From Euzebya sp. (lineage in GTDB: Bacteria; Actinomycetota; Nitriliruptoria; Euzebyales; Euzebyaceae), in contig NZ_CAXQBR010000049.1 in the NCBI RefSeq assembly GCF_964222135.1, forward strand, positions 1 through 54,494: a stretch of DNA of 54,494 bases, read 5' to 3'. Under the pieces are notes generated by a model. That model was not told the origin of the DNA. It worked only from the letters and a program-made list of their open reading frames with translations, and searched no databases. Both the position numbers and the translations under genes were made by a program. Within the stretch, counting starts at the first letter, position 1. Each line of letters begins with the position of its first letter. Shown piece after piece: positions 2,172 through 42,902 of the stretch.

Positions 2172-2822
2172 GTGCTGACCGATGCCCGCAGCTCCTCCGG
2201 CGCCGTGACCCGGCGCCCGACCGCACCCCGCGCGGAGGCGACCGACCAGGTCCCCGACGAGGACCTCGTCGCGGCCTTCGTCCGCGGGGACGAGCGCGCG
2301 TACGTCGCGCTGGTCGACCGCTACCGGCGGCGGGTCTTCGGAATCTGCATCCGCTACTTCGGCGATCCGGTCGACGCCGAGGACGCCGCCCAGGACGTCT
2401 TCCTCACGCTGTACCGCAGGGCGGCGACCTTCCGGGGCGGATCGAAGTTCTCGACCTGGATGTACCGGGTGACGACGAACGCCTGCAACGACCTCGCCCG
2501 CAAGCGCGCCCGTCGGCCGCAGAAGGCCGATGCGGTGGTCGAGGAGCTGCCGCTGGCCGACGCCGACGACCACATCGGTCGCCGCCTCCTCACCCTCGAG
2601 CTGCGGGAGGCGCTGCTGCAGCTCCAGCCCGAGCACCGCGACGCGGTCGTCGCGCACACCGTCGAGGGGCGTCCGTACCACGAGATCGCCGCCGAGGCCG
2701 GTGTCGCCGTGGGGACCATCAAGTCACGCGTCCACCGCGGCCACGCCAAGCTGGCGGCCATCCTGTCCGAGGGGGAGGGGTCGGGAGCGGAACCCTCGGA
2801 CCGCGGCCCACCTCCTACCTGA
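2172..2822 (+). CDS. ECF-family RNA polymerase sigma factor (SigM locus)
   Basis: A 216-residue protein with region 2 at about 40-107 (DRYRRRVFGICIRYFGDPVD, DAAQDVFLTLYRR, FSTWMYRVTTNACND) and region 4 at about 145-195 (LQPEHRDAVV, YHEIAAEAGVAVGTIKSRV). No region 3, so it is an ECF sigma factor. The GTG start sits 21 bases after the kinase stop and a purine-rich GGGGGAGG lies just upstream. The next gene encodes a one-pass membrane protein fitting an anti-sigma factor, and the thioredoxin genes follow. The order equals mycobacterial sigM–rsmA–trxB2–trxC. Whether it recognises the GGAAT…GTT promoters of trxB and trxA is inference; those boxes resemble SigR/SigH sites more than the published SigM consensus. 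Confidence 0.92.
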   Translation: MLTDARSSSGAVTRRPTAPRAEATDQVPDEDLVAAFVRGDERAYVALVDRYRRRVFGICIRYFGDPVDAEDAAQDVFLTLYRRAATFRGGSKFSTWMYRVTTNACNDLARKRARRPQKADAVVEELPLADADDHIGRRLLTLELREALLQLQPEHRDAVVAHTVEGRPYHEIAAEAGVAVGTIKSRVHRGHAKLAAILSEGEGSGAEPSDRGPPPT

Positions 2823-2864
2823 CGCAGCCTTCCCGTCCGCCCCCCCTCGGAGCTCCCTGACCAC

Positions 2865-3947
2865 GTGACCGATCCCGTCGACCTCCGCGAGCAGCTCGCC
2901 GCCTTCCTGGCCGGCGAGCTGGACGGTGCTGCCGCTGATGCGCTCCAGGACCGCATCGACGCCGAGCCCTGGGTCGCCCACCTCGCCGACGAGATGGCCG
3001 ACCTGCTCGTGGAGCTCGGCGGGGTCGACGACGTCACCCCGCCGCCGGGCTACGCCGACCGCCTCGCGGACGCCCTGGCCGCGGAGATCGGTCACCCCCT
3101 GCCCGCCGCCCCGGACCCGCGGGCGCTCGCCGCCACGGGTGCGGCCGCCGCCACGGGGTGGGCCGAGCAGCACACCGGCCCGCGAGGGCGTCGGCCCGGG
3201 AGCGCACGCCCGGCCGGCCGCGGTTCCGGCGGCGACCGCCGGAGGCGGCTGACCCGCGCGCTCGCCGTCGCCGCGGTCTTCGTGGTCATCGGCGTGGCCA
3301 CGGTCGGCGTGCTCGACGGCGGCCTCTTCGGCAGCGCGTCGGATTCGGGCTCGGACGAGGGGGCCGAGTTCGCCCAGGACGAGCGGGAGGTGCTGCAGGC
3401 CGGCGACGCGGCCGAGGACGATGCGGCCGACGGCGACGCGGCCGACGGCGATGCGGCAGCGACCGAGGCCGAGGACCCCGCGGTGGCCGCCGCGCCCGCC
3501 CCGACCGAGGAGGTCGCGGACGCCGCGGCCGAGGAGGGGTCCGCCGGTGCAGGTGCCGACGCCCTGATCGCGATCGACGGTCCCGCGGTCCTCGACCTCG
3601 GGCCGGTCGATCCCGCCGACCTCGGACCGGTCCTCACAGAGGACCCGGCGACGCAGGCCCTGCTGGGACTCGACGCGACCGCCGCCGCAGACCGCGCACG
3701 CGCCCACGCCGACGAGCTGCTCCGCGCCACGTACCCCGACCAGACGCCTGCCGGCACCTGCGTCCGCGAGGTCCTCGACGCCGCCGGCCCCGACCTGGTC
3801 CCCGCCGTCGCCGCGACGGCGGAGCTGCCCGACGGGCCCGTGATCGCCTTCGCGCTGGTCCGCTCCGCCGGCGGTGAGGCCCTGGACGCCGTCGACGTGT
3901 GGGTCGTCGACCCCTCCACCTGCGCGGTCCAGCAGGTCATCAGCTGA
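2865..3947 (+). CDS. Probable membrane anti-sigma factor
   Basis: A 360-residue protein starting at GTG 43 bases after the sigma gene. The cytoplasmic N-terminus (1-125) is acidic and helical (LREQLAAFLAGELDGAAADAL), then a basic patch (RRRR) and a single membrane helix at about 131-150. The outer part is a low-complexity Asp/Ala segment (about 160-220) followed by an ordered domain with two cysteines (TCVREV and STCAVQ near the end). This is the one-pass arrangement of ECF anti-sigma factors. The zinc-binding HxxxCxxC motif of the RsrA/RshA class is not present, so it should sense something other than cytoplasmic disulfide stress. Assignment depends on position behind the sigma gene; sequence similarity to a named family is not obvious. 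Confidence 0.7.
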   Translation: MTDPVDLREQLAAFLAGELDGAAADALQDRIDAEPWVAHLADEMADLLVELGGVDDVTPPPGYADRLADALAAEIGHPLPAAPDPRALAATGAAAATGWAEQHTGPRGRRPGSARPAGRGSGGDRRRRLTRALAVAAVFVVIGVATVGVLDGGLFGSASDSGSDEGAEFAQDEREVLQAGDAAEDDAADGDAADGDAAATEAEDPAVAAAPAPTEEVADAAAEEGSAGAGADALIAIDGPAVLDLGPVDPADLGPVLTEDPATQALLGLDATAAADRARAHADELLRATYPDQTPAGTCVREVLDAAGPDLVPAVAATAELPDGPVIAFALVRSAGGEALDAVDVWVVDPSTCAVQQVIS

Positions 3948-3960
3948 CCCCAGGCGTCTC

Positions 3961-3986
3961 GGAATAGGCTGCGGGACACCGCTGTT
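3961..3986 (+). promoter_or_regulatory. SigR/SigH-type ECF promoter of trxB (GGAAT-N18-GTT)
   Basis: GGAAT at 3961-3965 and GTT at 3984-3986 are separated by exactly 18 bases, which is the consensus of thiol-stress ECF factors (SigR of Streptomyces, SigH of Mycobacterium). It lies in the 86-base gap before trxB. The longer string GGAATA…GTTC recurs with the same spacing before trxA. Confidence 0.65.
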
Positions 3987-4033
3987 CAACGCCCTGCCGC
4001 CACCTCGGTCCCGCCTCGGAGGAAACCACCCAC

Positions 4034-27182: not shown

Positions 27183-27342
27183 AGGAGCTCCTCGCACTCG
27201 TCGCCAGCCACCCTCGCGGGACGCACAGGGACCCGCTAGGGCTGATGGCCTCCCCGTGGCAGGGACCATCGACCCGACGCCCGGCTGAGCCGCCCCGCGT
27301 GGTCGGGTACGCTCCGCGGCCCACGGCTCCATGGAGGACGAG

Positions 27343-27456
27343 ATGAAGAAGTTGCTGATCCTGCTGGCCGCTGCGACCGCCGGCGCGCTGGCGCTCAAGC
27401 GGCAGCGCGACCGTGAGCTCGACGAAGCGATCTGGGAGGAGCCGCGGGACCTCTGA
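27343..27456 (+). CDS. DLW-39 family small protein
   Basis: A 37-residue protein, MKKLLILLAAATAGALALK then a charged tail ELDEAIWEEP. The N-terminal hydrophobic stretch is a likely membrane anchor. DLW-39 proteins are about 39 residues, end in a D-L-W-like acidic motif and are encoded in this place between gyrA and tRNA-Ala in actinobacteria; function unknown. GGAGG at 27333-27337 supports the start. Confidence 0.85.
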   Translation: MKKLLILLAAATAGALALKRQRDRELDEAIWEEPRDL

Positions 27457-27495
27457 GTCCCGCTACGCTTGTCCGATCCCCGCAGGGGACCCCTC

Positions 27496-27568
27496 GGGGC
27501 CATAGCTCAGTTGGTAGAGCGCTGTCTTTGCAAGGCAGATGTCGCCGGTTCGATTCCGGCTGGCTCCA
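27496..27568 (+). tRNA. tRNA-Ala (TGC)
   Basis: Acceptor GGGGCCA/TGGCTCC with one G-T pair, D-arm GCTCAGTTGGTAGAGC, anticodon stem CTGTC/GGCAG (one G-T) with loop TTTGCAA (anticodon TGC), T-loop GGTTCGATTCC. CCA not encoded. A -10 TACGCT lies at 27464-27469. Confidence 0.97.
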
Positions 27569-28501: not shown

Positions 28502-29230
28502 ATGCGGCTCGCACTGCGCGCACTGGGCTGGCTGCTGATCGCGGCCGGCGCGGTGGTGGCCCTGTACCTCGTCTACTCGCTGTACTGGACGGGACTCGAG
28601 ACGTCCCGCTCCCAGGACCGGCTCATGCAGGAGTTCGAGGAGTCCATCGGGGGGGACTTCGTCGCGGCGGCGCCGACCGAGGGCGACGACTTCGACCTCG
28701 AGACCGCGGCACTCGACCCGCTCAGCGCGGAGGACCCCTCCGTGGGCCCCGCGACCGCGCCGACCGCCGCCGAGGTGGGGGATGCGGTCGGCGTCATGGA
28801 GTTCCGGCGTCCCGCCACCGGCCAGCAGGTCGTCACCGACCCGGTGGTCGTGGTGGAGGGCATCACCACCGAGGCGCTCCAGTCCGGGCCCGGTCGGTAC
28901 CCGGGGACCGCCTACCCGGGCCAGACCGGCAACTTCGCCGTCGCCGGGCACCGCACGACCTACGGCGCGCCGTTCTGGGATCTCGACCAGCTCGAGGCCG
29001 GCGACGAGATCCACGTCACCGACCGCAACGGGACCCGCTGGGTCTACGAGTTCGCCGAGAGCCGCATCGTCGGTCCCCAGGACGTGTCGGTGATCGGCGA
29101 GGACCCCCTGGGCACCGGCGCGCCGACCCTCACCCTCACGACGTGCCACCCGCGCTGGTCCCAGACCGAGCGCCTGATCGTCTTCGCGACCCTCAGCTCG
29201 GACCAGGTCCCCCTGGCGCTCGCGTCATGA
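28502..29230 (+). CDS. Class E sortase
   Basis: A 242-residue sortase with an N-terminal membrane anchor (about 4-27), a linker rich in Asp/Ala/Thr (60-95) and the catalytic domain 98-242. Catalytic triad: H150 in VAGHRTTY, C215 in TLTTCHPRW, R224 in QTERLIVFA. The motif TLTTCHPRWS and the position next to crgA/trpG are those of class E sortases in high-GC actinobacteria, which attach proteins carrying LAxTG-type signals. Its stop overlaps a 16-codon ORF (ATGA). Confidence 0.92.
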   Translation: MRLALRALGWLLIAAGAVVALYLVYSLYWTGLETSRSQDRLMQEFEESIGGDFVAAAPTEGDDFDLETAALDPLSAEDPSVGPATAPTAAEVGDAVGVMEFRRPATGQQVVTDPVVVVEGITTEALQSGPGRYPGTAYPGQTGNFAVAGHRTTYGAPFWDLDQLEAGDEIHVTDRNGTRWVYEFAESRIVGPQDVSVIGEDPLGTGAPTLTLTTCHPRWSQTERLIVFATLSSDQVPLALAS

Positions 29231-29420: not shown

Positions 29421-30881
29421 TCACCGGGGGCGCCGGCGGCGCACCACCTCGGCGAGTCCGAGGCCGACCAGCACCAGGAGCGCGGCGGCGAGCGCGATCG
29501 CGCTCGACCGCGGTGCGGGCAGGGCGGTGGTCATGACGGCCATGGGCCGCTCGGTGGGGGTGGCCACCTCCGACGCTGGTGCTGGACGCGTCTCGGCCTG
29601 CGGGACGACGGGTCCGGTGGGCGGCGGGTCCGGGGTCGGTTCCGCGGTGGGCGGGTCCGCAGTGGGAGGGTCCGCGGTGGTCGGGTCCGCTGTGGCAGGG
29701 GGTGGGCCCGGCGGGGCCACGGCCGCCAGCTGGGCATCGAGGGCGGTCCACACCTCCGGCGGTTCGAACCCCGCCCGCCACGCCGCGATGCCGGCGAGGC
29801 CGTGGGTGGCGACCAGCACGGTCTTGCGCTGGAGGCTCGCGACGTCCTCCATCCAGATCCGGTGGGGCCGGCCGCGCTCGTCGACGTAGGTGTGGACGTC
29901 CATGCCGGCTGCCGGGTCGTAGGCGACCGCCGTGCCGCGCTCGGCCGCCCGGCGGGCCATCGCCTCCATCCCCAGGGTGGCGTCGAGGTCGATGCCCTGC
30001 TCCGCCGAGGGGTCCTCGGCCCAGTCCCGTGCGTACAGCGGCAGGCCGAGCACGACCTTCTCCGGCGGGACGGTCCTGAGCAGGAACGCGGTGGACTCGG
30101 CGACCCACGAGAGGCCGGCCACGGGACCATCGCGCCGCAGGGCGTTGTGCTGGTCGTAGGCCATGAGCATGACGTAGTCGGCTACTCGGCCCAGCCCCTC
30201 CCGGTCGAAGGCCGTCGACCAGTTGCCGAGCACCCAGGTGTCGGTCATCGCGGTGACGTCGACGCTGATGACGCGGTCGGGCAGTGCGGCCTGGAGGTCG
30301 GCGACCAGCTGGGTCAGCAGCGGTGCGGTCCGGTCGTGCAGGTTCTCGAAGTCGACGTTGACGCCGTCCACGCCGCTGCGCCTCACCTCGGCGGCGATCT
30401 GGTCCACGACGCCCGCCCGGAGGGATGGATCCCGCAGCACCTGGTCGGTCAGGTCGGGATCGATGTGGTTGCCGAACAGCGGCCAGACCGCGATGCCACG
30501 GCCGTGGGCGTGGGCGACCAGGGCGGCGTCGGTGTCGATCTCCAGGGCTCCCGGGCGGGCGGGATCGAGGTACCACCACGTCGGCGACACCACGGACAGG
30601 CCGTCGGCGCGGTCGATCTGGGCGATGTACTCCGCGGTCGAGCCGCCGTAGAGCCACGCGAGGGCGATGTGCCCGTCCGGCCGCAGGTGGCGTGCCGCTG
30701 GGTCGGCGGTCGCGCCGGCAGCCGGCGGGGTGCGCAGCCCCAGGATCGCCACCAGCATCGCCACCAGGAGCGCCAGCGGGACCGCGACGACGAGGGCGGT
30801 CGCCCGGAGGACCGTCGATCCGGGTGTCGGCCCCGCGGCCACCGCCGCGGACGTCGCCACCTTGCGCTGCGTCCCCACCAC
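29421..30881 (-). CDS. Membrane-anchored GH18-type glycoside hydrolase (YaaH-like)
   Basis: A 486-residue protein with an N-terminal helix (about 29-50), a TIM-barrel hydrolase (70-380) containing the GH18 catalytic motif DGVNVDFEN with D172, D177 and acid E179, YVMLMAYDQHN with the substrate-binding MxYD, and GIAAWRAGF. A Thr/Pro-rich repeat linker (about 390-445: PTTADPPTADPPTAEP) leads to a C-terminal helix and RRRRPR tail. The fold is that of chitinase/SpoIIQ-YaaH peptidoglycan-active enzymes. A TACCGT -10 seven bases before GTG 30878 suggests a leaderless mRNA; GTG 30881 is the alternative start. It converges on the sortase. Confidence 0.85.
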   Translation of the reverse strand: MVGTQRKVATSAAVAAGPTPGSTVLRATALVVAVPLALLVAMLVAILGLRTPPAAGATADPAARHLRPDGHIALAWLYGGSTAEYIAQIDRADGLSVVSPTWWYLDPARPGALEIDTDAALVAHAHGRGIAVWPLFGNHIDPDLTDQVLRDPSLRAGVVDQIAAEVRRSGVDGVNVDFENLHDRTAPLLTQLVADLQAALPDRVISVDVTAMTDTWVLGNWSTAFDREGLGRVADYVMLMAYDQHNALRRDGPVAGLSWVAESTAFLLRTVPPEKVVLGLPLYARDWAEDPSAEQGIDLDATLGMEAMARRAAERGTAVAYDPAAGMDVHTYVDERGRPHRIWMEDVASLQRKTVLVATHGLAGIAAWRAGFEPPEVWTALDAQLAAVAPPGPPPATADPTTADPPTADPPTAEPTPDPPPTGPVVPQAETRPAPASEVATPTERPMAVMTTALPAPRSSAIALAAALLVLVGLGLAEVVRRRRPR

Positions 30882-30999
30882 CGCGACGGTAGCACCGGCG
30901 AGCACGCCCGATCGGCGCACGGACGGTGCGGTCCGGGCGTGGAAGAATGCGGGCGCGTCCCCCGGGGATCGCGAGCGCAGCGGAGGAGATGAGGACACG

Positions 31000-33900
31000 G
31001 TGCCAGAGCAGGAACCCAGCGCGGCCGAGCGCGCCCGACGTGCCGCCGAGGCGGCAGCGGAGGCCCGCCGCGAGGCGGCTCGCCACGCCGCTGCCCGGCG
31101 TGCGGAGCAGGCTGCCCGCCGTCGGGAGGTTCCCGCCCGCCGTCCGCCGGGGACCTCGCGGGCGACGGCCCCCCCGCCGGGTGCGGCCGCCGGGGGACCT
31201 GCCCGTCCCGCGGTGACACCGGATCCCGGCCGCACCACCCCCGCCGGTCCGGTGGGCGACAGGCCCGCGCCCCGACGCGGTCGGGGTGGCGACACCGGGG
31301 ACGGGACCGCGACGAGCGCCGCCGGGACTCCCGGACGGGCGACTCCGTCGACCCCGCCTGCGGGGTCGTCGCGCGACGTGTCGCGGCTGGCCCGACCCCC
31401 CGCGATCCGACGTCCGGTGCCGCCCGCCACGCGGACCGGCCGGCCGCCCGCGCCCGGCGCGCAGCCACCCGCCGCCCGACTCGGCGGCGACGTGCCAGCA
31501 CGCGACGCCGGTCCGACACCGGGTGCGCCGGACCAGGGCCGCGTCACCCCGCTCGCTGACGAGGGTCCCGCCGCGACCGGACCGGCGACCACGGGATCGA
31601 CGACGGCGCCGCAGGTCTCCGGGGCCCACGAGCCCAGCCGGACGAGCCCCGAGGAGACGGCGGACGAGCCGAGGGCGTCCGGGACGGCCCCCTCGGCCGG
31701 GCTCCCGGTGGACGGCCAGCGGTTGGGGGCGGCGACGGGCCAGCTCACGGATCTGCCGCCCCTCCCCGAGCCGCCAGGGCGGACCGCGCCCGGGGGCGAG
31801 GCGACGACGGACGCCGCCGGCGCCCCCCACGCAGGACCGGCGGCGCGCGCGCTCGACGGCCTGGTGCTCCCACGGCCGCCACGAGATGGCCCCGCCTCAG
31901 CGGGCACCGCACCCGACGCCGCGCCGGTCGCCGACGGGGATCCTGATTCGGCCTCACCGAGCGACGTGGCGCCCAGCGGTGCAGCAGCCGAGCCCGACGC
32001 CACGGGTGGCGCCGACGCCTCCGCCTCCCCGTCGGTCGGCCTCGCGACCGCGGACCTGCCGGTCGACCTCCCCGTGCCCGGCGACGGGGAGCCCACCGCG
32101 GGCGAGGACGACCGCCACCCGCCCGCGAACCCCGCGGCACGCACCCATGACGCCGACGCCGAGCCCGCGAAGCCCCCGTCCCCCGGGTCCGATGACCCGG
32201 CCGCCGACCCCACCGTCGACCTGCGGAGCGCGGCCGCGACGTCGGACACCGTCCGGCTCGCTCCCACCGCAGGGACCCCGGTCGCCGCCCAGGCGGGCAC
32301 CCGCCCGTGGGTGCGGGCGTACCCGCCCGGGGTGCCGGAGACCTACCGGTACCCGCTGGTCCCCCTCACCCGGTTCCTCGACGACGCGGCCCAGGACTTC
32401 CCCGACACCACCGGGCTGTCCTTCCTCGGGACCGAGACCAGCTACCGCCAGCTGTCCGAGCAGGTCGACCGGCTCGGGTCGGCGCTCACCGACCTCGAGC
32501 TGTCCGTCGGGGACCGCGTCGGGATCGCGCTGCCGTGGAGCCCGCAGCTCGTCCTCGCGCTCCACGCGTGCTGGCGACGCGGCTTCGACCCGGTGGTCCT
32601 CGACCCCGACGCCCCCGGTCACGTCCTGGCCGGCGCGGTCGGACTGTCGGCCCCCCGGGTCCTGATCCTCCTCGACACCCTCTACCCGGCGCTGACCGCG
32701 CACGCCGAGCAGCTGTCGAGCGTCCGCCACGTGGTCGCCACCAACCTGCTCGACGCCCTGCCGAGCCTCCGCGCCCGCGTGCAGTCGGTCCGCATGAAGG
32801 TCCCCACCGTCGAGATCCCCGCGAGCGAGGGCGTCCTCGCCCTCCGCACCCTCCTCGAGCGCGCGGCGCCCACCGCGACCCAGGTGGACGTGGACGTCGA
32901 GTCGGCGCCGGCGATGACCGTCGTCCGCGACGGCGCGGTGACCGCGTTCACCCACCACCAGCTCCTCGTGGGCGCGTTCCAGGCCCGTCTGTGGATCCCC
33001 GACGTCCAGGCCGGCCGCGAGGTGGTGGCGGTCGCGGGCGACCCGACCGATCCGTACGGGATGGCGGCCGGCATGCTCATGGCCGTCCTGTCCGCCGGCA
33101 CGGTCCTGCTGCCCGAGCCGCGTCCCGGCGGCCTGGCGCGCACGATCGACGCAGGCCGCCCGACGATCCTCGTCACCGGCGTCGAGGAGGTCCGCAAGGT
33201 CCTCGCCCCGTCCTCCCGCAAGCAGGACCTGACGTCCCTCCGCGTGAGCCTCGTGGCCGGCGCGCCCGCGGACCCGGCGGTGCGCGCCACCATGGAGCAG
33301 CGCACGGGCGGGCGGCTCCGCACGGCGGTCACCACCCCGCGCATCGCGGGCATCGCCGTCGCGGAACCCGTCTACGCGGACCCGCGTGGCACCGGTGCGG
33401 GGCTGGCCCTGCCAGACACCGACCTCCGCGTCGTCCCCGGCGACGGCCCCGCGGCCGGTCTCGCCGTCGGACCCGTCGAGGTGTCCGGCCCCCAGGTGCC
33501 AGGTGGCTGGCAGCCGCTCGGCCTGGTCGGCTGGCTCGACGACACCGGCTTCCTGACCGTCGTCGGCGACGCCGCTTCGACGGTCGTGCACGCCGACGGC
33601 GTGTCGGATCCCGCCGTGATCGCCGCGGCCGTCCGCCGCAGCCCCGGGGTGGTCGACGCGTCGGTGCGGACGGAGTTCACCGACGGCGCCCTCCGCCTGG
33701 TCGTGGACGCCACCGTCGCCGACGACGGGGTCACCCCCGCCCACCTCCTCGCCGGGCTCGCCGAGCGCGCCCCCGCACAGGCGCCTCCGTCGCGCTGGGA
33801 CATCACCGTCGCCGCGCCGACCCCGGCTGCGGTCGCCTCCGAGCCCGCCCAGCCCGAAACCCCCCAGCCCGAGGCCGGCCAGGCGGCGGTCACCCAGACC

Positions 33901-34128
33901 GACGCCGACCAGCCGGACGGGCCCCGGAGGGACGACACCGAGCCGCTCGGCGGCCAGACGGTCCGCCTCGACCTCTCCGACGGGGCGGGCGCGCCCCTGG
34001 GTGAGCTGCCCGATGCCGCCTCGGAGGATGCCGCCTCGGACGATGCCACCCCGGACGATGCCGGCACCGATGACGCCGTCCACGAGGACGCGGCGCCCGA
34101 TGACCCGGCGCGCGGGGGTGGGACCTGA
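31000..34128 (+). CDS. Large AMP-binding (ANL) fold protein, probably catalytically inactive
   Basis: A 1042-residue protein. Residues 1-440 are disordered: a charged Ala/Arg helix (AAEAAAEARREAARHAAARR) then Pro/Ala/Thr/Gly-rich sequence. From about 445 to 930 it follows the acyl-CoA synthetase/AMP-ligase fold (SYRQLSEQVDRLGSAL, VGDRVGIALPWSPQLVLALHACWRRG, LVGWLDDTGFLTVVGD), but the P-loop TSGTTGxPKG is reduced to TVVRDGAVTAFTHHQ and the YGxTE motif is unrecognisable. The tail is acidic with DNA repeats coding DAASEDAASDDATPDD. It is probably a scaffold or a binding pseudoenzyme. Start GTG chosen for GGAGGAG upstream. It is divergent from the GH18 gene. Confidence 0.75.
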   Translation: MPEQEPSAAERARRAAEAAAEARREAARHAAARRAEQAARRREVPARRPPGTSRATAPPPGAAAGGPARPAVTPDPGRTTPAGPVGDRPAPRRGRGGDTGDGTATSAAGTPGRATPSTPPAGSSRDVSRLARPPAIRRPVPPATRTGRPPAPGAQPPAARLGGDVPARDAGPTPGAPDQGRVTPLADEGPAATGPATTGSTTAPQVSGAHEPSRTSPEETADEPRASGTAPSAGLPVDGQRLGAATGQLTDLPPLPEPPGRTAPGGEATTDAAGAPHAGPAARALDGLVLPRPPRDGPASAGTAPDAAPVADGDPDSASPSDVAPSGAAAEPDATGGADASASPSVGLATADLPVDLPVPGDGEPTAGEDDRHPPANPAARTHDADAEPAKPPSPGSDDPAADPTVDLRSAAATSDTVRLAPTAGTPVAAQAGTRPWVRAYPPGVPETYRYPLVPLTRFLDDAAQDFPDTTGLSFLGTETSYRQLSEQVDRLGSALTDLELSVGDRVGIALPWSPQLVLALHACWRRGFDPVVLDPDAPGHVLAGAVGLSAPRVLILLDTLYPALTAHAEQLSSVRHVVATNLLDALPSLRARVQSVRMKVPTVEIPASEGVLALRTLLERAAPTATQVDVDVESAPAMTVVRDGAVTAFTHHQLLVGAFQARLWIPDVQAGREVVAVAGDPTDPYGMAAGMLMAVLSAGTVLLPEPRPGGLARTIDAGRPTILVTGVEEVRKVLAPSSRKQDLTSLRVSLVAGAPADPAVRATMEQRTGGRLRTAVTTPRIAGIAVAEPVYADPRGTGAGLALPDTDLRVVPGDGPAAGLAVGPVEVSGPQVPGGWQPLGLVGWLDDTGFLTVVGDAASTVVHADGVSDPAVIAAAVRRSPGVVDASVRTEFTDGALRLVVDATVADDGVTPAHLLAGLAERAPAQAPPSRWDITVAAPTPAAVASEPAQPETPQPEAGQAAVTQTDADQPDGPRRDDTEPLGGQTVRLDLSDGAGAPLGELPDAASEDAASDDATPDDAGTDDAVHEDAAPDDPARGGGT

Positions 34129-34150
34129 CGCTGCTAGCCTTCGCCGCCTG

Positions 34151-34873
34151 ATGGCAGGTGCCGGCTCCGCACGGACCGCGGGCGGCGTGGACGCGCGGCC
34201 CGGGCCCGCCCGCTCCCGCGCACGCCGGGGTGACGGTGCCCGCCTGCGCCGAGAGATCCTGGACGCCACCACCCGGCTGCTGGTCGAGACCGGTGACGAG
34301 GGCGCGGTCAGCGTCCGCGCGGTCGCCGAGCGGGTCGGGGTGACCCCGCCGTCGATCTACCTCCACTTCGGGGACAAGGGCGAACTGATCTTCGAGTGCT
34401 GCCGGATGCTGATGGGACAGCTCGCCGTGCGGGTCACCGAGGCGGTGGAGGGGATCCGGGACCCCGTCGAGCGACTCCGCCTGGCCGCCCACACCTTCGT
34501 GACCTTCGGCATCGAGAACCCCGAGCCGTACCGCATCACGTTCATGTCGCCCCACCACGAGGTCCCCGACGACTTCGACATCGAGTCCTACGAGGGGACC
34601 CACGCGTTCCGCCTGCTCACCGACATGGTCGCCGACGTCCGGAGCCCCCGCGTGGCCCCCGCCGATCCGCCGCACGACGCGCCCCACCCGACGGACGAGA
34701 TGTGGGCTATGGGGTTGCTCGCCGCCTTCCACGGCGTGACGTCCCTGATGGTCGCGAAGGCCGTCGAGCCGATCGACTTCCCCTGGCCCGAGGTCGGGCC
34801 GCTCGTCGACCACCTCCTCGACGTCCACCTCGCCGCCATGACCGCGGGGGCTGCGGGTGGGGTCGCGCCATGA
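34151..34873 (+). CDS. TetR/AcrR-family transcriptional regulator
   Basis: A 240-residue regulator. The HTH is at about 40-80 (REILDATTRLLVETG, AVSVRAVAERVGVTPPSIYLHFGDKGELI) and the C-terminal ligand domain follows the WHG type (IENPEPYRITFMSP). The first 30 residues are an Arg-rich disordered extension and could be shorter if a later start is used. It lies 22 bases after the AMP-binding-fold gene and overlaps trpG/pabA by ATGA. The target is not known; the upstream gene is the natural candidate. Confidence 0.88.
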   Translation: MAGAGSARTAGGVDARPGPARSRARRGDGARLRREILDATTRLLVETGDEGAVSVRAVAERVGVTPPSIYLHFGDKGELIFECCRMLMGQLAVRVTEAVEGIRDPVERLRLAAHTFVTFGIENPEPYRITFMSPHHEVPDDFDIESYEGTHAFRLLTDMVADVRSPRVAPADPPHDAPHPTDEMWAMGLLAAFHGVTSLMVAKAVEPIDFPWPEVGPLVDHLLDVHLAAMTAGAAGGVAP

Positions 34874-35481
34874 GCGCCCCTCCGCGCGTGCTGCTCGTCG
34901 ACAACTACGACAGCTTCACCTACAACATCGCCCAGGAGATGGGGGAGCTCGGCGCCGCGGTGGAGGTGGCGCGCCACGACGCGTTCACCCTCGACGACGT
35001 CGAGGCCGACGCGCCCGACGGGATCGTCATCTCACCCGGTCCCGGCGTCCCGGCCGACGCGGGGATCTCGAACGACGTGATCCGCCGGTTCGCGGGCGAG
35101 ATCCCCCTCCTCGGCGTCTGCCTCGGCCACCAGTGCATCGCCGAGGTCTACGGCGCCACGATCGTCCCGGCGCCCGAGCTGGTCCACGGCAAGACCTCCG
35201 CGATCCACCACGACGCGCGCGGGGTGTTCAGCGGCCTCCCCCAGTCCTTCGACGCGACGCGGTACCACTCCCTCGTCGCGGACCCGGCCACGATCCCCGA
35301 CGAGCTGGTCGTCACCGCGCGGACCGGTCCGGGTTCGGCCCACCCCGACCTCATCATGGGGGTGCGCCACGCGACCCTGCCGGTGGAGGGGGTCCAGTTC
35401 CACCCCGAATCGATCCTCACCCGCGTCGGGATGACCCTGCTCGGCAACTTCCTGGCGAGCCTGCCGGTCCGGATCGGCTGA
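34870..35481 (+). CDS. Class I glutamine amidotransferase, anthranilate/aminodeoxychorismate synthase component II
   Basis: A 203-residue glutaminase subunit. DNYDSFTYN begins it; nucleophile Cys in GVCLGHQCIAEVYG, HGK oxyanion/partner loop in VHGKTSAI, and catalytic His/Glu in GVQFHPESI. The product feeds ammonia to TrpE or PabB for tryptophan or folate synthesis; the partner subunit is not in the window, so trpG and pabA cannot be told apart. In M. tuberculosis the same gene (Rv0013) also lies convergent with pknB. Start overlaps the TetR stop. Confidence 0.93.
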   Translation: MSAPPRVLLVDNYDSFTYNIAQEMGELGAAVEVARHDAFTLDDVEADAPDGIVISPGPGVPADAGISNDVIRRFAGEIPLLGVCLGHQCIAEVYGATIVPAPELVHGKTSAIHHDARGVFSGLPQSFDATRYHSLVADPATIPDELVVTARTGPGSAHPDLIMGVRHATLPVEGVQFHPESILTRVGMTLLGNFLASLPVRIG

Positions 35482-35488
35482 CCGACCG

Positions 35489-37396
35489 CTACTCCCCGGG
35501 CGGGGTCGGCGGGGTCGGCGGCTGGGCCGGACCGGGAGTGGGCGTCGGCGTCGGGGTGGGTGGCGGCGTCGGCGTCGGTTGCGCGGTCGGCGTCGGCTCG
35601 GGCTCGTCGGTCGGCTCGGGCTCGTCGGTCGGCTCGGGATCCGGCGGGGGGGTCTCGGTCGGCTCCGGCGTCGACAGCGTGATCGTGACCAGCGATCCGA
35701 TCTCGACCGGCTCGCCGGCCTCGGGGTCGCTGCGGATCACCCGTCCCTCACCGACCTCGCTCGCGTCGGTCCGCACGTCGACCAGCGCGCACACCGGCTC
35801 GCCCGGCTCGCGGCCGCAGGCGTTCTCGATCTGCTCGCGGGCCACCTCGGCGGTCAGGTCGACGACGAAGGGCATCTGGAACGTCTGCTGCCCGGCGGAG
35901 ACGACGAGCGTGACGCTGCTGCCCTCCTCCACCTGGCTGCCGGCGCCCGGCTGGGTGCGCAGCGCGAGCCCCTCCTCCACCTGGTCGTCCTCGTCGGTGA
36001 TGACCTCCTCGACGACCAGGCCCGCGGCCTCGAGCGTCTCCTCCGCCTCCGCCTGGGTCAGGTCGGCGACGTTCGGGATCACGACCGTCCCACGACCCGA
36101 GGAGAGGGTGAGGGTCACCGTCGAGCCGGCGTCCACGGTGGTCCCCGGCGGCGGGTCGCTCGCGAGGACCGCCCCCGGCGGCGCCTCCGGGTCGGACTGC
36201 GCCGGCCCGAACGCCGGCTGCAGCCCGAGGTCGACCAGGATCTCCTGGGCCTGCTCCTGATCGATCCCGATGATGCTGGCGGGGATCTCGACCTGGGCGA
36301 GGTCCTCCTCGTCGCCGTCGGTCACCGTGGTGAACAGGTACACCGCGATGCCGACCAGCGCGAGGATCAGCACGACCAGGAAGGCGTAGGCGACGATCCG
36401 CCCGGTGTTCGGCCCCTCGTCGGCGTAGTAGCGCTCAGGCTCGGCGGTCGTGGTGGTCCGGGTGGCGACCAGCGTCGGGTCGTGCGGCGCGGCGGCACCG
36501 GCGGCCTGGCGCGGGATGGCCTGCGTCGCCGCGTACGCCGCGGTCGGGCTGGTGGACACCTGCTGGCCGGCGACGGCGCGGTGCAGGTCGTCGGCCATCT
36601 CCCGCCCGGTCTGGTAGCGCTGGGCCGGGTCCTTGGCGAGGGCCTTCAGGACCACGGCCTCGAGCTGCGGGGAGATCTCGGGGTTGATGCTGCGCGGCTG
36701 CGGCGGCGCCTCGCTGACGTGCTTGTAGGCCAGGGTCACCGCCGACTCGCCCGTGAACGGCTGCTGGCGGGTCAGCATCTCGAACAGCACGCAGCCGAGG
36801 GCGTAGATGTCGGTGCGCCCGTCGACGCGCTGGCCCTGCGCCTGCTCGGGCGCGACGTACGCGGCCGTGCCGAAGATCGACGACGTCTGCGTGATCGACT
36901 CGACGTTGACCGCGCGGGCGATCCCGAAGTCGGTGACCTTCACCCGCCCGTCGTCCCCGATCATGATGTTGCCTGGTTTGATGTCGCGGTGGACGATGCC
37001 GCGCTCGTGGGCGAAGTGCAGGGCCTGGGCGGCCTCCGCGGCGATCTCCGCGGCGCGTCGGGGCAGGACCCCCTCCCGCTTGAGGATCTCCCGCAGCGTC
37101 CGGCCGGCGATGTACTCCATCACGATGTAGGGACGGCCGGCGTCCGAGCCGGTGTCGTACACCCCGACGACGTTCGGGTGGTTGAGCGCGGCGGCGGACT
37201 GCGCCTCCCGCCGGAACCGCTCGACGAAGGAGTCGTCGCCGGCGTAGCGCTCGTGCAGCATCTTGATCGCGACCTGGCGATCGAGGACCTCGTCGTACGC
37301 CAGCTCGACGTCGGCCATCCCACCCTGGCCGAGCAGACCGCGCAGGACGTAGCGGCCGGCGACCACTCGCCGGTCCTGTCCGTCAGTCGTGCTCAC
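35489..37396 (-). CDS. pknB: Ser/Thr protein kinase PknB with PASTA repeats
   Basis: A 635-residue kinase from GTG 37396 (GGAAGG nine bases upstream; an ATG at 37417 is the other choice). Kinase: LLGQGGMADV, VAIK, HRDIKPGN, DFGIARA and YVAPEQ. One helix (VAYAFLVVLILALVGIAVYLF) then three extracellular PASTA repeats (about 385-450, 450-515, 516-590) and a Pro/Thr/Glu tail (PTPTPPPTPTPTPTPG). PASTA modules bind muropeptide and lipid II, and PknB controls wall synthesis and division. The last gene of the fhaA-fhaB-pstP-rodA-pbpA-pknB operon. Mycobacterial pknA is missing before it. Confidence 0.96.
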   Translation of the reverse strand: MSTTDGQDRRVVAGRYVLRGLLGQGGMADVELAYDEVLDRQVAIKMLHERYAGDDSFVERFRREAQSAAALNHPNVVGVYDTGSDAGRPYIVMEYIAGRTLREILKREGVLPRRAAEIAAEAAQALHFAHERGIVHRDIKPGNIMIGDDGRVKVTDFGIARAVNVESITQTSSIFGTAAYVAPEQAQGQRVDGRTDIYALGCVLFEMLTRQQPFTGESAVTLAYKHVSEAPPQPRSINPEISPQLEAVVLKALAKDPAQRYQTGREMADDLHRAVAGQQVSTSPTAAYAATQAIPRQAAGAAAPHDPTLVATRTTTTAEPERYYADEGPNTGRIVAYAFLVVLILALVGIAVYLFTTVTDGDEEDLAQVEIPASIIGIDQEQAQEILVDLGLQPAFGPAQSDPEAPPGAVLASDPPPGTTVDAGSTVTLTLSSGRGTVVIPNVADLTQAEAEETLEAAGLVVEEVITDEDDQVEEGLALRTQPGAGSQVEEGSSVTLVVSAGQQTFQMPFVVDLTAEVAREQIENACGREPGEPVCALVDVRTDASEVGEGRVIRSDPEAGEPVEIGSLVTITLSTPEPTETPPPDPEPTDEPEPTDEPEPTPTAQPTPTPPPTPTPTPTPGPAQPPTPPTPPGE

Positions 37397-37428
37397 AGCA
37401 CCATGCCTTCCATCCACGAGCAGCTCGC

Positions 37429-38913
37429 CTAGGTGGCGAGCGCTGCTTCCAACACCGTACGGGCGATCGGCGCCGCCACGCCGCCACCGGTCCCGCTCTC
37501 ACCCGCGTCGCCCCCGCCCTCGACCACGACGGCCACGGCCACCCGGGGTTCGTCCGCCGGCGCGAAGCCGATGAACCACGTGTCCGGCGGCTCGCCGTCG
37601 CCCTGCTCGGCGGTCCCCGTCTTGCCGGCCACCTGCACGCCGGGGACCTGGGCGTTCGAGCCGGTGCCGTCAGCGACGACGCCGACCATCATGTCCGTCA
37701 GCGCCTCCGCGGTCGCCGGGCTGATCGCCACACCCGATGCGCTGGCCTGCGTCGCCCGCGCCTCCGCGGGGTACTGGCGGACGGTGCGGCCCGCGAAGTC
37801 CTGCACCTCGGTCACCAGGCGGGGGCGCATCATCACCCCGTCGTTGCCGATCGCGGCGGCCACCAGGGCCATCTGCAACGGCGACACGCGGACGTCGCGC
37901 TGGCCGATCGCGCTCTGGGCCGTCTGCGGCGGGTCGAGCTCCTTCGGGATCCGGCTGGTGGCCGTCGGCAGGTCGAACTCGAGGTCGGCGTTCAGGCCGA
38001 ACGCCTCCGCGGTCTCGATCAGGGCCTGCGCGCCGAGGTCCAGGCCGATCTGGCCGAAGGTCGTGTTGCACGAGACCTCGAGGGCCCGTCGGAGCGACAC
38101 GGTCCGCCCGTCGCCGCACGACCGCCCGCGGGCGAAGTTCCCGATCTGGGCCTCGGTCTGGGGCAGGTCGAGGAAGGGCGGGTCCGGGTAGGTGTCGGCG
38201 GGCGTCACCCCGCGCTCGAGCGCCGCGGCGGCCGTGATCACCTTGAACGTCGATCCGGGCGCGTACAGCTCGCTGGTGGCGCGGTTGAGCCGCGGGTTCG
38301 ACGGGTCCGCCTCGAGCGCCTCCCACGTCTCGCGGATCTGCGCGCCGTCGTGGCTCGACAGCAGGGTCGGGTCGTAGGAGGGACTCGACACCATCGCGAG
38401 GACGTCCCCGGTGCGGGGGTCGAGCGCGACGACCGCGCCGGTCTGGCCGGCCAGCGCCTGCGCCGCGGCGGCCTGCACCTGCGGGTCGATCGAGGTGACG
38501 ACCGTGTCGCCCTGGCGCTCGCGGCCCTGCAGCGCGTCCCCCAGGTTGCGGAACAGCGCCTCGGGCGAGGAGCCCTGCAGGAAGTCGTTGTAGCGCTGCT
38601 CGAGCTGGCTGCGGCCGAAGATGAAGGAGTGGAAGCCGGTGACGTGCGCGTACAGCTCCGGCTCGGCGTACTCGCGCAGGAAGCGGAGCTGGTCGTCGGT
38701 CTCGCGGGAGCTGGCGATCGTCTGCTGGGCGCCGCCCCGCCCCACGGTGATCGACCCGCGTCGGATGTCGTACTCCGCCAGCAGCTGCCGGCGGTTCCGG
38801 GGATCCTCCGCCAGGTCGTCGGCGCGGATGACCTGCAACCAGTTGAGGTTGAGGAACAGCAGGCCGAAGAGGACGAACACGGTCCAGGCCGTGCGGCGGA
38901 TGGAGCGCGTCAC
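37429..38913 (-). CDS. pbpA: Penicillin-binding protein (class B transpeptidase) PbpA
   Basis: A 494-residue class B PBP: one N-terminal helix (about 7-25), a dimerisation region, and the transpeptidase with S-x-x-K as STFK (in LYAPGSTFKVI), SxN as SCN (VSCNTTFG) and KTG in AGKTGTAEQ. It crosslinks peptidoglycan. The GTG overlaps the rodA stop (GTGA), so the SEDS polymerase and its PBP are made together, as expected for a RodA–PbpA pair. Confidence 0.96.
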   Translation of the reverse strand: MTRSIRRTAWTVFVLFGLLFLNLNWLQVIRADDLAEDPRNRRQLLAEYDIRRGSITVGRGGAQQTIASSRETDDQLRFLREYAEPELYAHVTGFHSFIFGRSQLEQRYNDFLQGSSPEALFRNLGDALQGRERQGDTVVTSIDPQVQAAAAQALAGQTGAVVALDPRTGDVLAMVSSPSYDPTLLSSHDGAQIRETWEALEADPSNPRLNRATSELYAPGSTFKVITAAAALERGVTPADTYPDPPFLDLPQTEAQIGNFARGRSCGDGRTVSLRRALEVSCNTTFGQIGLDLGAQALIETAEAFGLNADLEFDLPTATSRIPKELDPPQTAQSAIGQRDVRVSPLQMALVAAAIGNDGVMMRPRLVTEVQDFAGRTVRQYPAEARATQASASGVAISPATAEALTDMMVGVVADGTGSNAQVPGVQVAGKTGTAEQGDGEPPDTWFIGFAPADEPRVAVAVVVEGGGDAGESGTGGGVAAPIARTVLEAALAT

Positions 38914-40295
38914 GGCCCGGTCGCCACCCCGGCGAGCGCGGCGGATGCCGCCCGACGGCCCTGCGCGCGCCGGGCGCCGCTGATCAGCACCAGCAGGGCG
39001 ATCAGCACGTAGTTGGCGAGCAGGCTCGACCCGCCGTAGGAGACGAGCGGCAAGGTGATGCCGGTCAGGGGGATCAGCCGGGTGACGCCGCCGACGATCA
39101 CGAAGACCTGGAGCGCGAACACGAACGTCAGACCGGCTGCGAGCAGGCGGCTGAAGTCGTCCGGCGCGCGGAGCGCGATGACGAACCCGCGGCCGACGAG
39201 CAGGAAGTAGAGGAGCAGGATCGCGGTGGTGCCGAGCAGCCCGAGCTCCTCGCCGATCGCGGCGAAGATGAAGTCGGTCGGCACGTCGGGGATGAGCTCG
39301 GGGTTGCCGCGTCCCCAGCCGACCCCGGCGACCCCGCCGGTACCCAGCGCGAACAGGGACTGGACCAGCTGGAAGCCGGCGCCCTGGGCATCGGCGAACG
39401 GGTCGAGCCAGATCTCGACGCGGGTCTGGACGTGGCTGAACGCCGTCCAGCTGAGGAACGCCCCGCCGCCGAAGAGCAGGCCCCCGACCGCGACGTAGGC
39501 GACCCTGCCGGTCGCCATGTAGAGCATCGCGACGAAGATGCCGAACACCAGCAGGCTCAGGCCGAGGTCCCGCTCGAAGACGAGCACCCCGAGCGACACC
39601 CCCCAGGCGACGGCGACCGGTCCGAACGCCCGTGCCGGCGGCACGTGGAGCGGGCCCAGTCGTGACGTCGCCGCGCTCAGGAGCGCCCGCTTCTCCGCGA
39701 GGTAGCTGGCGAAGAAGACCACCAGGCCGATCTTGGCGAACTCGCCGGGCTGCAGGCTGAACCCGCCGGGGATGCGCAGCCAGATGCGGCTCCCCCGCCC
39801 GAAGTCGGTGCCGAGCACCGGCAGCAGCGGCGTCATCAGCGCGATGACGGCACCGAGGCCGATGAGGTACCGGTAGCGGTCGAGCACCGTGTGGTCCCGC
39901 AGGAGCAGCACCGTGCCGCAGAACAGGCCGATGCCGACCATCGTCCAGATCGTCTGCAGCGGCGCGAGCGCGTTGTCGGCGGCGAGCGCGTGGTCGATGC
40001 GGCGGACCATGACCAGCCCGATGCCGTTGAGCAGGAACGCGATCGGCAGCAGCAGCGGGTCGGCGTGGGGGGCCAGGCGGCGGACGACGATGTGCGCCGC
40101 GGCGGCCAGCGCGACGAGGACCCCGCCGTAGGCCGCGAGGTCCGCGGGGATGGCCGGCTCGCGCGCCAGGTTGACCAGCACGTAGGCGCTGAGGGTGATG
40201 ATGATCGCCAGGATCAGCAGCGCCAGCTGCGCGCCGCCACGCCGCCTGCCCTGCGGGGACCGCGTCGCGGCCGACCGGCCGGTCGCGTCAGCCAT
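38910..40295 (-). CDS. rodA: SEDS-family peptidoglycan polymerase RodA/FtsW
   Basis: A 461-residue multi-helix protein with the SEDS signatures GSRIWLRIPGGFSLQPGEFAK, DLGLSLLVFGIF (the Asp essential for glycosyltransfer) and GITLPLVSYGGSSLLANY. It polymerises lipid II into glycan. RodA rather than FtsW is chosen from the operon, which is the same as mycobacterial fhaA…pknB. The pstP stop lies inside its first codons (8-base overlap). Confidence 0.94.
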   Translation of the reverse strand: MADATGRSAATRSPQGRRRGGAQLALLILAIIITLSAYVLVNLAREPAIPADLAAYGGVLVALAAAAHIVVRRLAPHADPLLLPIAFLLNGIGLVMVRRIDHALAADNALAPLQTIWTMVGIGLFCGTVLLLRDHTVLDRYRYLIGLGAVIALMTPLLPVLGTDFGRGSRIWLRIPGGFSLQPGEFAKIGLVVFFASYLAEKRALLSAATSRLGPLHVPPARAFGPVAVAWGVSLGVLVFERDLGLSLLVFGIFVAMLYMATGRVAYVAVGGLLFGGGAFLSWTAFSHVQTRVEIWLDPFADAQGAGFQLVQSLFALGTGGVAGVGWGRGNPELIPDVPTDFIFAAIGEELGLLGTTAILLLYFLLVGRGFVIALRAPDDFSRLLAAGLTFVFALQVFVIVGGVTRLIPLTGITLPLVSYGGSSLLANYVLIALLVLISGARRAQGRRAASAALAGVATGP

Positions 40296-41637
40296 CGGAT
40301 GCGGTGCCGTCCGAGGGGTCGGGTTCGGGCGTGACCTTCTCCTCGGTCGCGGGCTCGGTGGCCGACTCCGTCGCCGGGACGTCCGTCGCGTCCTCGACCG
40401 GTTCGTCCCCGTCCACCTCGTCGACGGCGGGCAGCAGGACCTGGCGGACGTGCGCGGCCGCCTCCGCCTCGGTCGAGAAGCTGATGCCGTCCTCGAGCCC
40501 CGGGTGCAGCCGCTCGGGCAGGTCGTCGAGGGTGAAGGGCTGCTCCTCCACCAGGGTCGACAGCCCGATGCCGAGCAGGTCGCCCTGTATCCCCCGGTAG
40601 ATCCCGACCTGGCCGTCGTCGCCCACCCCGACGAAGTACTGGCGGCTGAGCAGCAGGTAGGCGCCCCCGACCAGCACGGCGAGGACGATCAGCACCCCGA
40701 CGACGACGGCGGCGATCCGGCGGCCCCGGCCACCCCCGGAGTCGCGGTCGCCGTCGTCGACCACGCCGCGCGCGATGTCGGGGTCGCCGTCGCTCAGCTC
40801 GGCCAGGCGTCGCGCGTCGAGGGTCGAGGGCTCGCCCAGCTCGGCGGTGGCGTCCTCGTCGGACGTCGCCCGCGGCACCTGCTCGACGGGCGCAGGGGCC
40901 GGTCCCTCCCCCTCCACCCGCAGCAGGACGCAGGTGATGTTGTCCGGCCCGCCGCCGGCGTTCGCCGCGTCGATCAGGCGCTGGCAGGCGATGTTGCCGT
41001 CCGACTCGGTCTGCAGGATCTCGGCGATCAGCGCCTCGGACACGGGACCGGTCAGCCCGTCGGAGCACAGCAGGATCTGATCGCCCGGCATCAGCTCGAG
41101 CGGCTGGGCCATCACGTCCACCTCGATGGCCGACTCGACGCCGATCGCCCGCGTGATCACGCTGCGCTGGGGGTGGGTGGCCGCCTGCTCCTCGGTCAGC
41201 CGCCCGTCCTTGACCAGCTCGTTGACCAGGGTGTGGTCCTCGGTCAGCATCTCGAGCATGCCGCTGCGCAGCAGGTAGGCACGGCTGTCGCCGACGTGGG
41301 CGAGGTGCAGCCGGCGCCCGCGGACCATCACGGTGGTGAGGGTCGTGCCCATGCCCCGGAGGTCGGGGTCCGCGGTGGCCTTCTCGATCACCAGGTGGTT
41401 GGCCTCGCGCACCGCGTCGGCGAGGGCCTCCGTCGCGGCGGTCGGGTCCCGGAACTCGGTGCCGTCGATGGCCTGGAGCGGACCGATGGCCGCGGCCGAG
41501 GCGACCTCGCCGGCGGCGTGCCCGCCCATCCCGTCGGCCACGGCGAAGACCGTGCGGCCGACCATGAGGTTGTCCTCGTTGATCTCGCGGAACAGCCCCT
41601 TGTTGGTGTCGCCGAAGGCGTGGACCGTGAAGCTCAT
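40288..41637 (-). CDS. pstP: PP2C-type protein phosphatase PstP
   Basis: A 449-residue PPM/PP2C phosphatase that reverses PknB signalling. Metal motifs: INEDN, ADGMGGHAAGE, HVGDSRAYLL, CSDGLT and GPDNITC. One helix at about 295-318 (IAAVVVGVLIVLAVLVGG) is followed by an external domain and an acidic Thr/Glu tail. Its start is seven bases after fhaB, and its stop overlaps rodA. Confidence 0.96.
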   Translation of the reverse strand: MSFTVHAFGDTNKGLFREINEDNLMVGRTVFAVADGMGGHAAGEVASAAAIGPLQAIDGTEFRDPTAATEALADAVREANHLVIEKATADPDLRGMGTTLTTVMVRGRRLHLAHVGDSRAYLLRSGMLEMLTEDHTLVNELVKDGRLTEEQAATHPQRSVITRAIGVESAIEVDVMAQPLELMPGDQILLCSDGLTGPVSEALIAEILQTESDGNIACQRLIDAANAGGGPDNITCVLLRVEGEGPAPAPVEQVPRATSDEDATAELGEPSTLDARRLAELSDGDPDIARGVVDDGDRDSGGGRGRRIAAVVVGVLIVLAVLVGGAYLLLSRQYFVGVGDDGQVGIYRGIQGDLLGIGLSTLVEEQPFTLDDLPERLHPGLEDGISFSTEAEAAAHVRQVLLPAVDEVDGDEPVEDATDVPATESATEPATEEKVTPEPDPSDGTASDG

Positions 41638-41644
41638 AGCCCGC

Positions 41645-42115
41645 TCATCGTCTGACCTCGACGCTCGTGCGGCCGAACGAGATCTGGTCGCCCGCGCGGA
41701 GCGGTGTCGGAGCCGTCAGGCGGACGGCGTTCAGGTAGGTGCCGTTGGTCGAGCCCTCGTCGATCAGCGTCCAGCCATCGCCGTCGGTCTCGATGCGGGC
41801 GTGGAAGTCGCTGGCGTACGGGTCGCTCAGCACGACCGTCGCCGTCTCGTGGCGGCCGAAGGTCACCTGGCGACCCTCCTCGAGGGGCAGCACGCGCGGC
41901 GCGCCGTCGGGGGCGTGGATGACCAGCTCGCGCGGCGTGGCGCGACGTTGCTTGGCCGGGCGGCTCCGGGCCGGTGCCGGAGCGGGCGCCGGGCTGGTCG
42001 GCGCGGCGACGTCCCGGATGACCCACCGCACCGCCCGCGCCACGAAGGCGTACAGCAGGACCAGGAACAGCGCCTGGAGGACGGTGAAGACGATCGGCGG
42101 CACGTCACTGCCCAC
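41645..42115 (-). CDS. fhaB: FHA-domain membrane protein FhaB/FipA
   Basis: A 156-residue protein with an N-terminal helix (VFTVLQALFLVLLYAFVARAV), a Pro/Ala linker and a C-terminal FHA domain: GRHETATVVLSDPYASDFHA and STNGTYLN. It binds phosphothreonine on partner proteins; in mycobacteria FhaB links PknB targets to septal assembly. The GTG at 42115 overlaps the fhaA stop by 11 bases; GTG 42103 is another possible start. No ribosome site decides. Confidence 0.9.
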   Translation of the reverse strand: MGSDVPPIVFTVLQALFLVLLYAFVARAVRWVIRDVAAPTSPAPAPAPARSRPAKQRRATPRELVIHAPDGAPRVLPLEEGRQVTFGRHETATVVLSDPYASDFHARIETDGDGWTLIDEGSTNGTYLNAVRLTAPTPLRAGDQISFGRTSVEVRR

Positions 42116-42902
42116 TGAGCAGGAAGGTGAAGGTCACGTCGCCGACCTCCAGCCGGTCGCCGGGCTTCACCTCGCTGACCTGCACGGGCTGTGCGTTGAC
42201 CCGGACCCCGTTGGTGGACCCCAAGTCGGTGATCGTCCACCGGTCACCCTCCTGCTGCAGCTTCGCGTGGCGCCGGGACACGCCGGCACCGGTCAACGTG
42301 ATGTCGCACTCGGGCAGCCGCCCGAGGACGACCTGGGAGTGTTCCACGGGGAACACCTTGCCGGCATCCGCCCCGTCCACCGCGCGCAGCACCGGGCGGG
42401 CCGCCGGACCCGCGGGCGCGGCGGTGGACACGGCAGGCTCGGCAGCCGGGGGCCGCGGGGCGGGCTGGGCGGTCGGGGGTGACGCGGGCATCGGCGGCGG
42501 GCCCTGTCGACTCGACGACGGTGCGCCCGTCCCCGGCGCCTCGCTCTTGCCGCGCAGCTCGAAGGTGCCGACGCGGATGTCGTCGGAGCGCTCGAACTCG
42601 ATCCGGATGGGTCCCTGGGTGCGCCACCCCTTCTCGTCCGCGGTGCGGCGCGCCACGTCCGCCAGCTCGCGCTGGAGGGACCGGGTGAACCCGCTGAACC
42701 GTTCGATGTCGGACTGGGAGAGGGTGAAGCGGTAGACGTTCGGGACGTACACCGCGTCGACGCCGACGTGCTGGTAGTCGGCCTCGTAGCGCTGGATGGC
42801 CTTGGCCAGCTCGACGGGTTGCAGTCCGGAGCGGAAGGCGCGCGCGAAGAAGCCCTCCACCGCGCCTTCGAGGCGCTTCTCGAAGTCCCTCAGGATGCTC
42901 AT
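42105..42902 (-). CDS. fhaA: DUF3662 and FHA domain protein FhaA
   Basis: A 265-residue cytoplasmic protein: an N-terminal DUF3662 domain (1-115, MSILRDFEKRLEGAVEGFF), a Pro/Ala linker (120-165), and an FHA domain (about 180-262: LGRLPECDITLTGAGVSRRH, GSTNGVRVN). In mycobacteria FhaA binds the MurJ-associated pseudokinase MviN and controls lipid II export; here the kinase at the beginning of the window is the probable partner. The ATG follows GGAG. First gene of the operon. Confidence 0.95.
   Translation of the reverse strand: MSILRDFEKRLEGAVEGFFARAFRSGLQPVELAKAIQRYEADYQHVGVDAVYVPNVYRFTLSQSDIERFSGFTRSLQRELADVARRTADEKGWRTQGPIRIEFERSDDIRVGTFELRGKSEAPGTGAPSSSRQGPPPMPASPPTAQPAPRPPAAEPAVSTAAPAGPAARPVLRAVDGADAGKVFPVEHSQVVLGRLPECDITLTGAGVSRRHAKLQQEGDRWTITDLGSTNGVRVNAQPVQVSEVKPGDRLEVGDVTFTFLLSGQ

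Follow-up and report, generated by a model that had tools for sequence, protein, structure and literature searches.

The pseudo-FadD locus and its conservation

The window analysed here is a stretch of 54,494 nucleotides from Euzebya sp. (contig NZ_CAXQBR010000049.1), and its features of interest surround a long open frame that starts with the GTG at 31000 and stops at 34128 (Table 1). In the GC frame plot the third-position GC is 0.90–0.99 over the core of the gene and a mixed 0.77–0.94 in the low-complexity N-terminal part. A wrong-frame artefact is ruled out by the third-position GC of the core, by conservation of the frame and by the excess of third-position differences between the congeneric genomes G001 and G003, and an assembly or frameshift artefact by the occurrence of the gene in many independent genomes. 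Long overlapping open frames are also present on both strands between 32300 and 33800, most likely as a by-product of the 72% GC content and not as genes.

Table 1. Features of the pseudo-FadD gene and its neighbours (positions in the window)
Feature	Position	Strand	Basis
Sortase, conserved upstream neighbour	28502..29230	+	Pfam PF04203, 2.1e-31; synteny
Shine-Dalgarno-like GGAGG...GAGG preceding GTG	30982..30994	+	direct sequence reading
CDS of pseudo-acyl-CoA synthetase, 1042 aa	31000..34128	+	open frame, GC frame plot, family matches
N-terminal extension, 430 aa, Ala/Pro/Thr/Gly/Arg-rich, presumed disordered	31000..32289	+	composition; frame conservation in the genus with third-position excess; alignment
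Helix-like N-terminus, Ala/Arg/Glu-rich, conserved in 4/4 genus members	31018..31125	+	alignment
ANL fold, N-domain and reduced C-terminal subdomain (predicted)	32290..33813	+	AF2 pLDDT 92.8; VIA-align Z 41.6 to 4wv3
N-terminal arm plus first helix of FadD type, YPPGVPxxYxYPxVPLTRxLDDAAxDFP, kept in dead members	32320..32403	+	alignments
Lost P-loop (A3) site, TVVRDGAVTAFTHHQ	32917..32961	+	alignment to intact orthologs
Segment after former P-loop, FQARLWIPDVQAGRE; R-L-W-x-P-D and E invariant in 37/37 dead members	32977..33021	+	alignments
Lost A5 motif (YGxTE) site, RTAVTTPRIAG	33319..33351	+	alignment to intact orthologs
Lost A7 motif (TGD) site, PLGLVGWL	33514..33537	+	alignment to intact orthologs
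C-terminal tail, Asp/Ala/Pro-rich, without catalytic lysine	33817..34125	+	composition, alignment
TetR regulator (approximate start), conserved only within part of the genus	34100..34873	+	Pfam PF00440, 4.1e-12; synteny
pabA-type glutamine amidotransferase (approximate start), conserved downstream neighbour	34857..35481	+	Pfam PF00117, 2.8e-54; synteny
Cell-growth cluster: PknB-, PBP-, FtsW-, PP2C- and FHA-like genes	35489..42902	-	named from translations and synteny

The encoded protein has three parts. The 430-residue N-terminal extension (A 22%, P 18%, G 11%, R 10%, T 9%) is presumed, from its composition alone, to be disordered, and its frame is conserved within the genus. The core is followed by a tail of about 110 residues, 17% of them aspartate, with DAxxDDA repeats at 34012–34104. 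A preliminary description of the locus had pointed to this Pro/Ala/Thr-rich N-terminus and acidic repeat tail, and both are borne out; the very long extension is typical of the window's genus, but orthologs elsewhere mostly measure 430–620 aa.

Orthologs were sought in 60 related genomes together with the window's own, and in a scan of public contigs that yielded seven relatives from the class by name (named Nitriliruptorales and Egibacter MAGs) and two weak matches; the sources are mostly draft or metagenome-assembled genomes, and synteny was judged from flanks of up to ~10 kb on either side. A positional ortholog lies between the sortase gene and pabA at 44 loci of the class. The recurrent order, with strand kept, is sortase, [GH18], pseudo-FadD, [TetR], pabA, PknB, PBP, FtsW, PP2C, FHA; most members of family f4 have their PknB cluster elsewhere, beyond ~10 kb. 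Adjacency to a TetR gene, which the preliminary description had noted, holds in G000, G001 and G003, but only there, and is no general feature. A position in the core origin region, as that description proposed, would agree with the PknB/PBP/FtsW/PP2C neighbours and with the situation in G003, whose 5.8-Mb contig carries the pseudo-FadD gene 17.6 kb from its start. Divergent from the pseudo-FadD gene is a GH18-family gene (29421–30900, minus strand), found at the locus only in G001, G003, G010 and G016. Farther upstream (24483–27503, minus strand), a large open frame resembles a fusion of a GNAT domain with an ADP-forming acyl-CoA synthetase, of the protein acetyltransferase type.

Fold and catalytic motifs

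The Pfam AMP-binding model (PF00501) matches the core of about 500 residues with an E-value of 9.5e-30. The closest curated models are those of long-chain fatty-acid–CoA ligases, with scores far under their cut-offs: the best NCBIfam model, PRK05605, gives the window protein 139.2 bits against a cut-off of 766, which intact orthologs of the class likewise miss, with 597 and 542 bits. An AlphaFold2 model of the core, computed with 41 class orthologs as input, reached a pLDDT of 92.8 and a pTM of 0.92. Fold comparison with VIA-align (Foldseek was also run) matched it to 4wv3 with a Z-score of 41.6 and to the long-chain acyl-CoA synthetase of Thermus thermophilus, ttLC-FACS (1ULT/1V25/1V26), with a Z-score of 38.8 to 1v26 and an rmsd of 2.4 over 372 residues. 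Given the confidence of the prediction and these matches to ANL enzymes, the modelled core has the fold of an acyl-CoA synthetase, comprising the N-domain and a C-terminal subdomain; the ANL fold that the preliminary description had recognised in the sequence is thus confirmed by structure prediction. The relationship is to FadD (the PRK05605/PRK06710 group of PF00501, whose models match the intact ortholog G024 with 638 and 597 bits), with which the window protein shares its fold and from whose intact members it descends directly by position.

What sets the window protein apart from FadD, besides the long extension and the tail, is the loss of its catalytic motifs, all of which are present in the active ttLC-FACS. 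Where intact orthologs carry YTGGTTGxSKGVMLTH, it has TVVRDGAVTAFTHHQ; no [ST]GTTGxPKG remains (TVVRDG...AVTAFTHH), and the deletion is present in four of four members of the genus. The A5 motif YGxTE is gone, with RTAVTTPRIAG opposite REGYGLTETSP of the intact orthologs, as is the TGD of A7 (PLGL as against LTGD), and the GKVLRR that bears the A10 catalytic lysine is missing. Alignment to intact orthologs therefore upholds the reported loss of the P-loop and of YGxTE and extends it to TGD and the lysine. Only 4 of 40 FadD-conserved motif residues are retained, versus 47 of 94 other residues of the N-domain. With the P-loop, YGxTE, TGD and the catalytic lysine all lost, acyl-AMP synthesis by this protein in the usual manner is not credible, and since the adenylation motifs are absent it is unlikely to be an active fatty acyl-AMP ligase (FAAL). 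The window protein shows one mark of a pseudoenzyme, a homologous fold whose catalytic residues are missing.

Intact, dead and absent copies across the class

Catalytic motifs were scored in 43 of the 44 orthologs, leaving out the fragment G026, which is also without a P-loop. They are retained in six (G010, G016, G024, G027, G054 and G060) and lost in the other 37. The preliminary description had held that orthologs with intact motifs might expose the gene as one decayed copy; such orthologs do exist, in these six members and at the same locus outside the class, but with 37 of 43 dead a single decayed copy is ruled out. In 17 of the 37 dead orthologs the C-terminal subdomain is wholly missing, and tblastn found no trace of it at those loci; a match in G050 proved to be a different gene. 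At locus L095 of G050 (2404–3996, plus strand) there is a second FadD-like open frame with a C-terminal subdomain, on the opposite strand and several kb from the dead copy, which is possibly an active partner.

The locus thus occurs in graded states: intact (six), partly damaged (G015, G019), fully damaged, and cleanly absent. The last is seen in G017 and G018 (L241, L248), where both neighbours are kept and a gap of 167–200 bp separates sortase and pabA. The gene was also not detected adjoining pabA in G020–G023, G031, G033, G038 and G046, and the sortase–pabA gap of lineages without it holds no gene remnant. As several lineages lack the gene, it is not essential class-wide and its role is not universal.

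The direction of change is indicated by a phylum-wide profile search with inspection of flanking regions. Two further families of the phylum have a FadD gene next to pabA (at least seven loci, L209–L215), at several of these loci also beside sortase or PknB, and all seven copies have complete motifs; the ancestral state at the locus, as read from these sequences, is therefore an active FadD. The C-terminal subdomain was lost seven or eight separate times on each of three trees. For the P-loop, the gene trees imply one or two losses, and a species tree built from neighbour genes plus rpoB implies 11; the latter figure is probably an overestimate, since that tree separates, for lack of data, G054 and G060, two intact members of one genus. 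Given that split, and as relaxed sites pull dead members together, the true count may lie between the two figures. An AU test on the gene alignment mildly rejected two species groupings (p 0.018 and 0.037), which could stem from parallel loss of constraint or from an old duplication.

The dead core shows purifying selection in the pair G001/G003, with a dN/dS of 0.071 over 500 codons, a low value that comes mainly from this one close pair, and with 13, 12 and 129 differences at codon positions 1, 2 and 3. In this pair it is constrained as tightly as its neighbours pabA (0.070), sortase (0.072) and PP2C (0.073); the values for PknB, FtsW and GH18 are 0.040, 0.030 and 0.210, and that for the N-terminal extension is 0.355 (NG86) or 0.182 (YN00). 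Other dead pairs have ratios of 0.16–0.24 (G051–G053, G030–G034), rising to 0.48 with near-saturated dS. Slow reductive decay, in which a formerly useful FadD is being lost from one lineage after another and serves no function today, would be compatible with the graded series from intact to cleanly absent and with the moderate ratios of several dead pairs (0.44–0.48). These ratios, however, stem from the pairs with near-saturated dS, and the long open frames of all 37 dead members, the match to neighbouring genes within the genus, the confidently predicted intact fold and the invariant RLWxPD described below make decay very unlikely. The earlier suggestion of a conserved non-catalytic protein rather than a decaying one thus agrees with both the selection data and the ortholog survey.

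Retained surface and possible roles

Among FadD-conserved residues, mean retention in dead members is lowest in the P-loop (9%), A10 (16%), A8 (19%) and the C-domain (23%), followed by FFHxYG (28%) and A5 (39%), and reaches 56% in A7 and 58% in the rest of the N-domain, of which 26 columns are retained at 85% or more. Dead members keep the N-terminal arm and, after the former P-loop, a segment of the pattern FQxRLWxPDxQAGRE, whose R, L, W, P, D and E occur in 37 of 37 dead and six of six intact class members. In 16 active relatives outside the class the counts are R 11, L 2, W 16, P 9 and D 11, W and E being general FadD residues. Judging from these alignments, the surface formed by the arm and RLWxPD apparently gained constraint in the class before catalysis was lost. 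Because the residue set is also present in intact class members, a second role would probably predate the loss of catalysis.

This distribution also bears on the possibility of a changed enzyme, which would use other catalytic residues or would have turned the old acyl pocket to another reaction, such as ATP-independent acyl binding, transfer or hydrolysis. In its favour, structure prediction gives an intact ANL N-domain, and there are known pseudoenzymes whose catalytic residues have migrated (PMC10211241). Yet most of the FFHxYG residues belonging to the former active site are gone, and the invariant columns (V, P, R, D, A, L, W, E, G) form no new catalytic-looking set; catalysis by relocated residues is itself unlikely, because the P-loop, the lysine and, in 17 members, the whole C-terminal subdomain are gone. 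We regard a changed enzyme as quite unlikely.

We therefore favour, at a probability of about 0.6, the reading that the protein is a FadD-type ANL protein that has lost ATP binding and adenylate/thioester catalysis but that selection maintains for a non-catalytic task, a dead FadD probably re-used for a job other than that of an enzyme. As to what the task may be, dimer contacts in ttLC-FACS reportedly lie in the N-terminal arm and in the helix that follows the P-loop, and these segments correspond to those retained in dead orthologs. On this basis we tentatively propose that the FadD N-domain would serve as a dimerisation or docking module, predicted to pair with an active acyl-CoA synthetase or another partner, which the docked pseudo-FadD might regulate or position; the long flexible extension would have been added in the window's genus. 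Even granted a selected pseudoenzyme, this mechanism falls somewhat short of even odds. Many further AMP-binding genes, found by family search in the window's own genome, could be the active partners. Further partial AMP-binding matches in long open frames of this genome, G000 (C62:32775–33134, C74:47885–48502, C84:17821–18300), may represent additional degenerate ANL proteins.

Many pseudoenzymes work in this way, and their part as allosteric partners is well documented (PMC10211241). FAM20A, MTMR13 and the trypanosome prozyme have likewise lost motifs while retaining their fold under selection, with possible pairing with an active relative (PMC10211241, PMC5201418); they belong to other enzyme families and their partners are demonstrated, whereas that of pseudo-FadD is putative. 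The preliminary description had suggested a scaffold or a lipid sensor. A lipid or acyl-CoA sensor, binding its ligand and signalling to envelope growth through the PknB/FHA neighbours, would suit the synteny with PknB, PBP, FtsW and PP2C in many members, and the Thr-rich extension of the genus could be a kinase substrate. That extension is missing from most orthologs, though, and the distant PknB cluster of f4 also argues against a sensor, which we consider unlikely. For the class as a whole, the selected non-catalytic protein may represent an ANL pseudoenzyme family that gained a protein-binding surface (the arm and RLWxPD) while still an active FadD, then lost catalysis repeatedly and became a conserved part of an envelope-growth locus, a scenario to which we give slightly less than even odds.

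Pseudoenzymes have been well studied among kinases, phosphatases and proteases. For the acyl-CoA synthetase superfamily our literature search brought up no description of such a family, and the pseudo-FadDs would be a new one there. An annotation as "AMP-binding" or "FadD" would mislabel most of these genes. Related bacteria have this one locus in an intact, half-dead, dead or lost state, and the order in which a new function comes first and catalysis is lost later is therefore testable.
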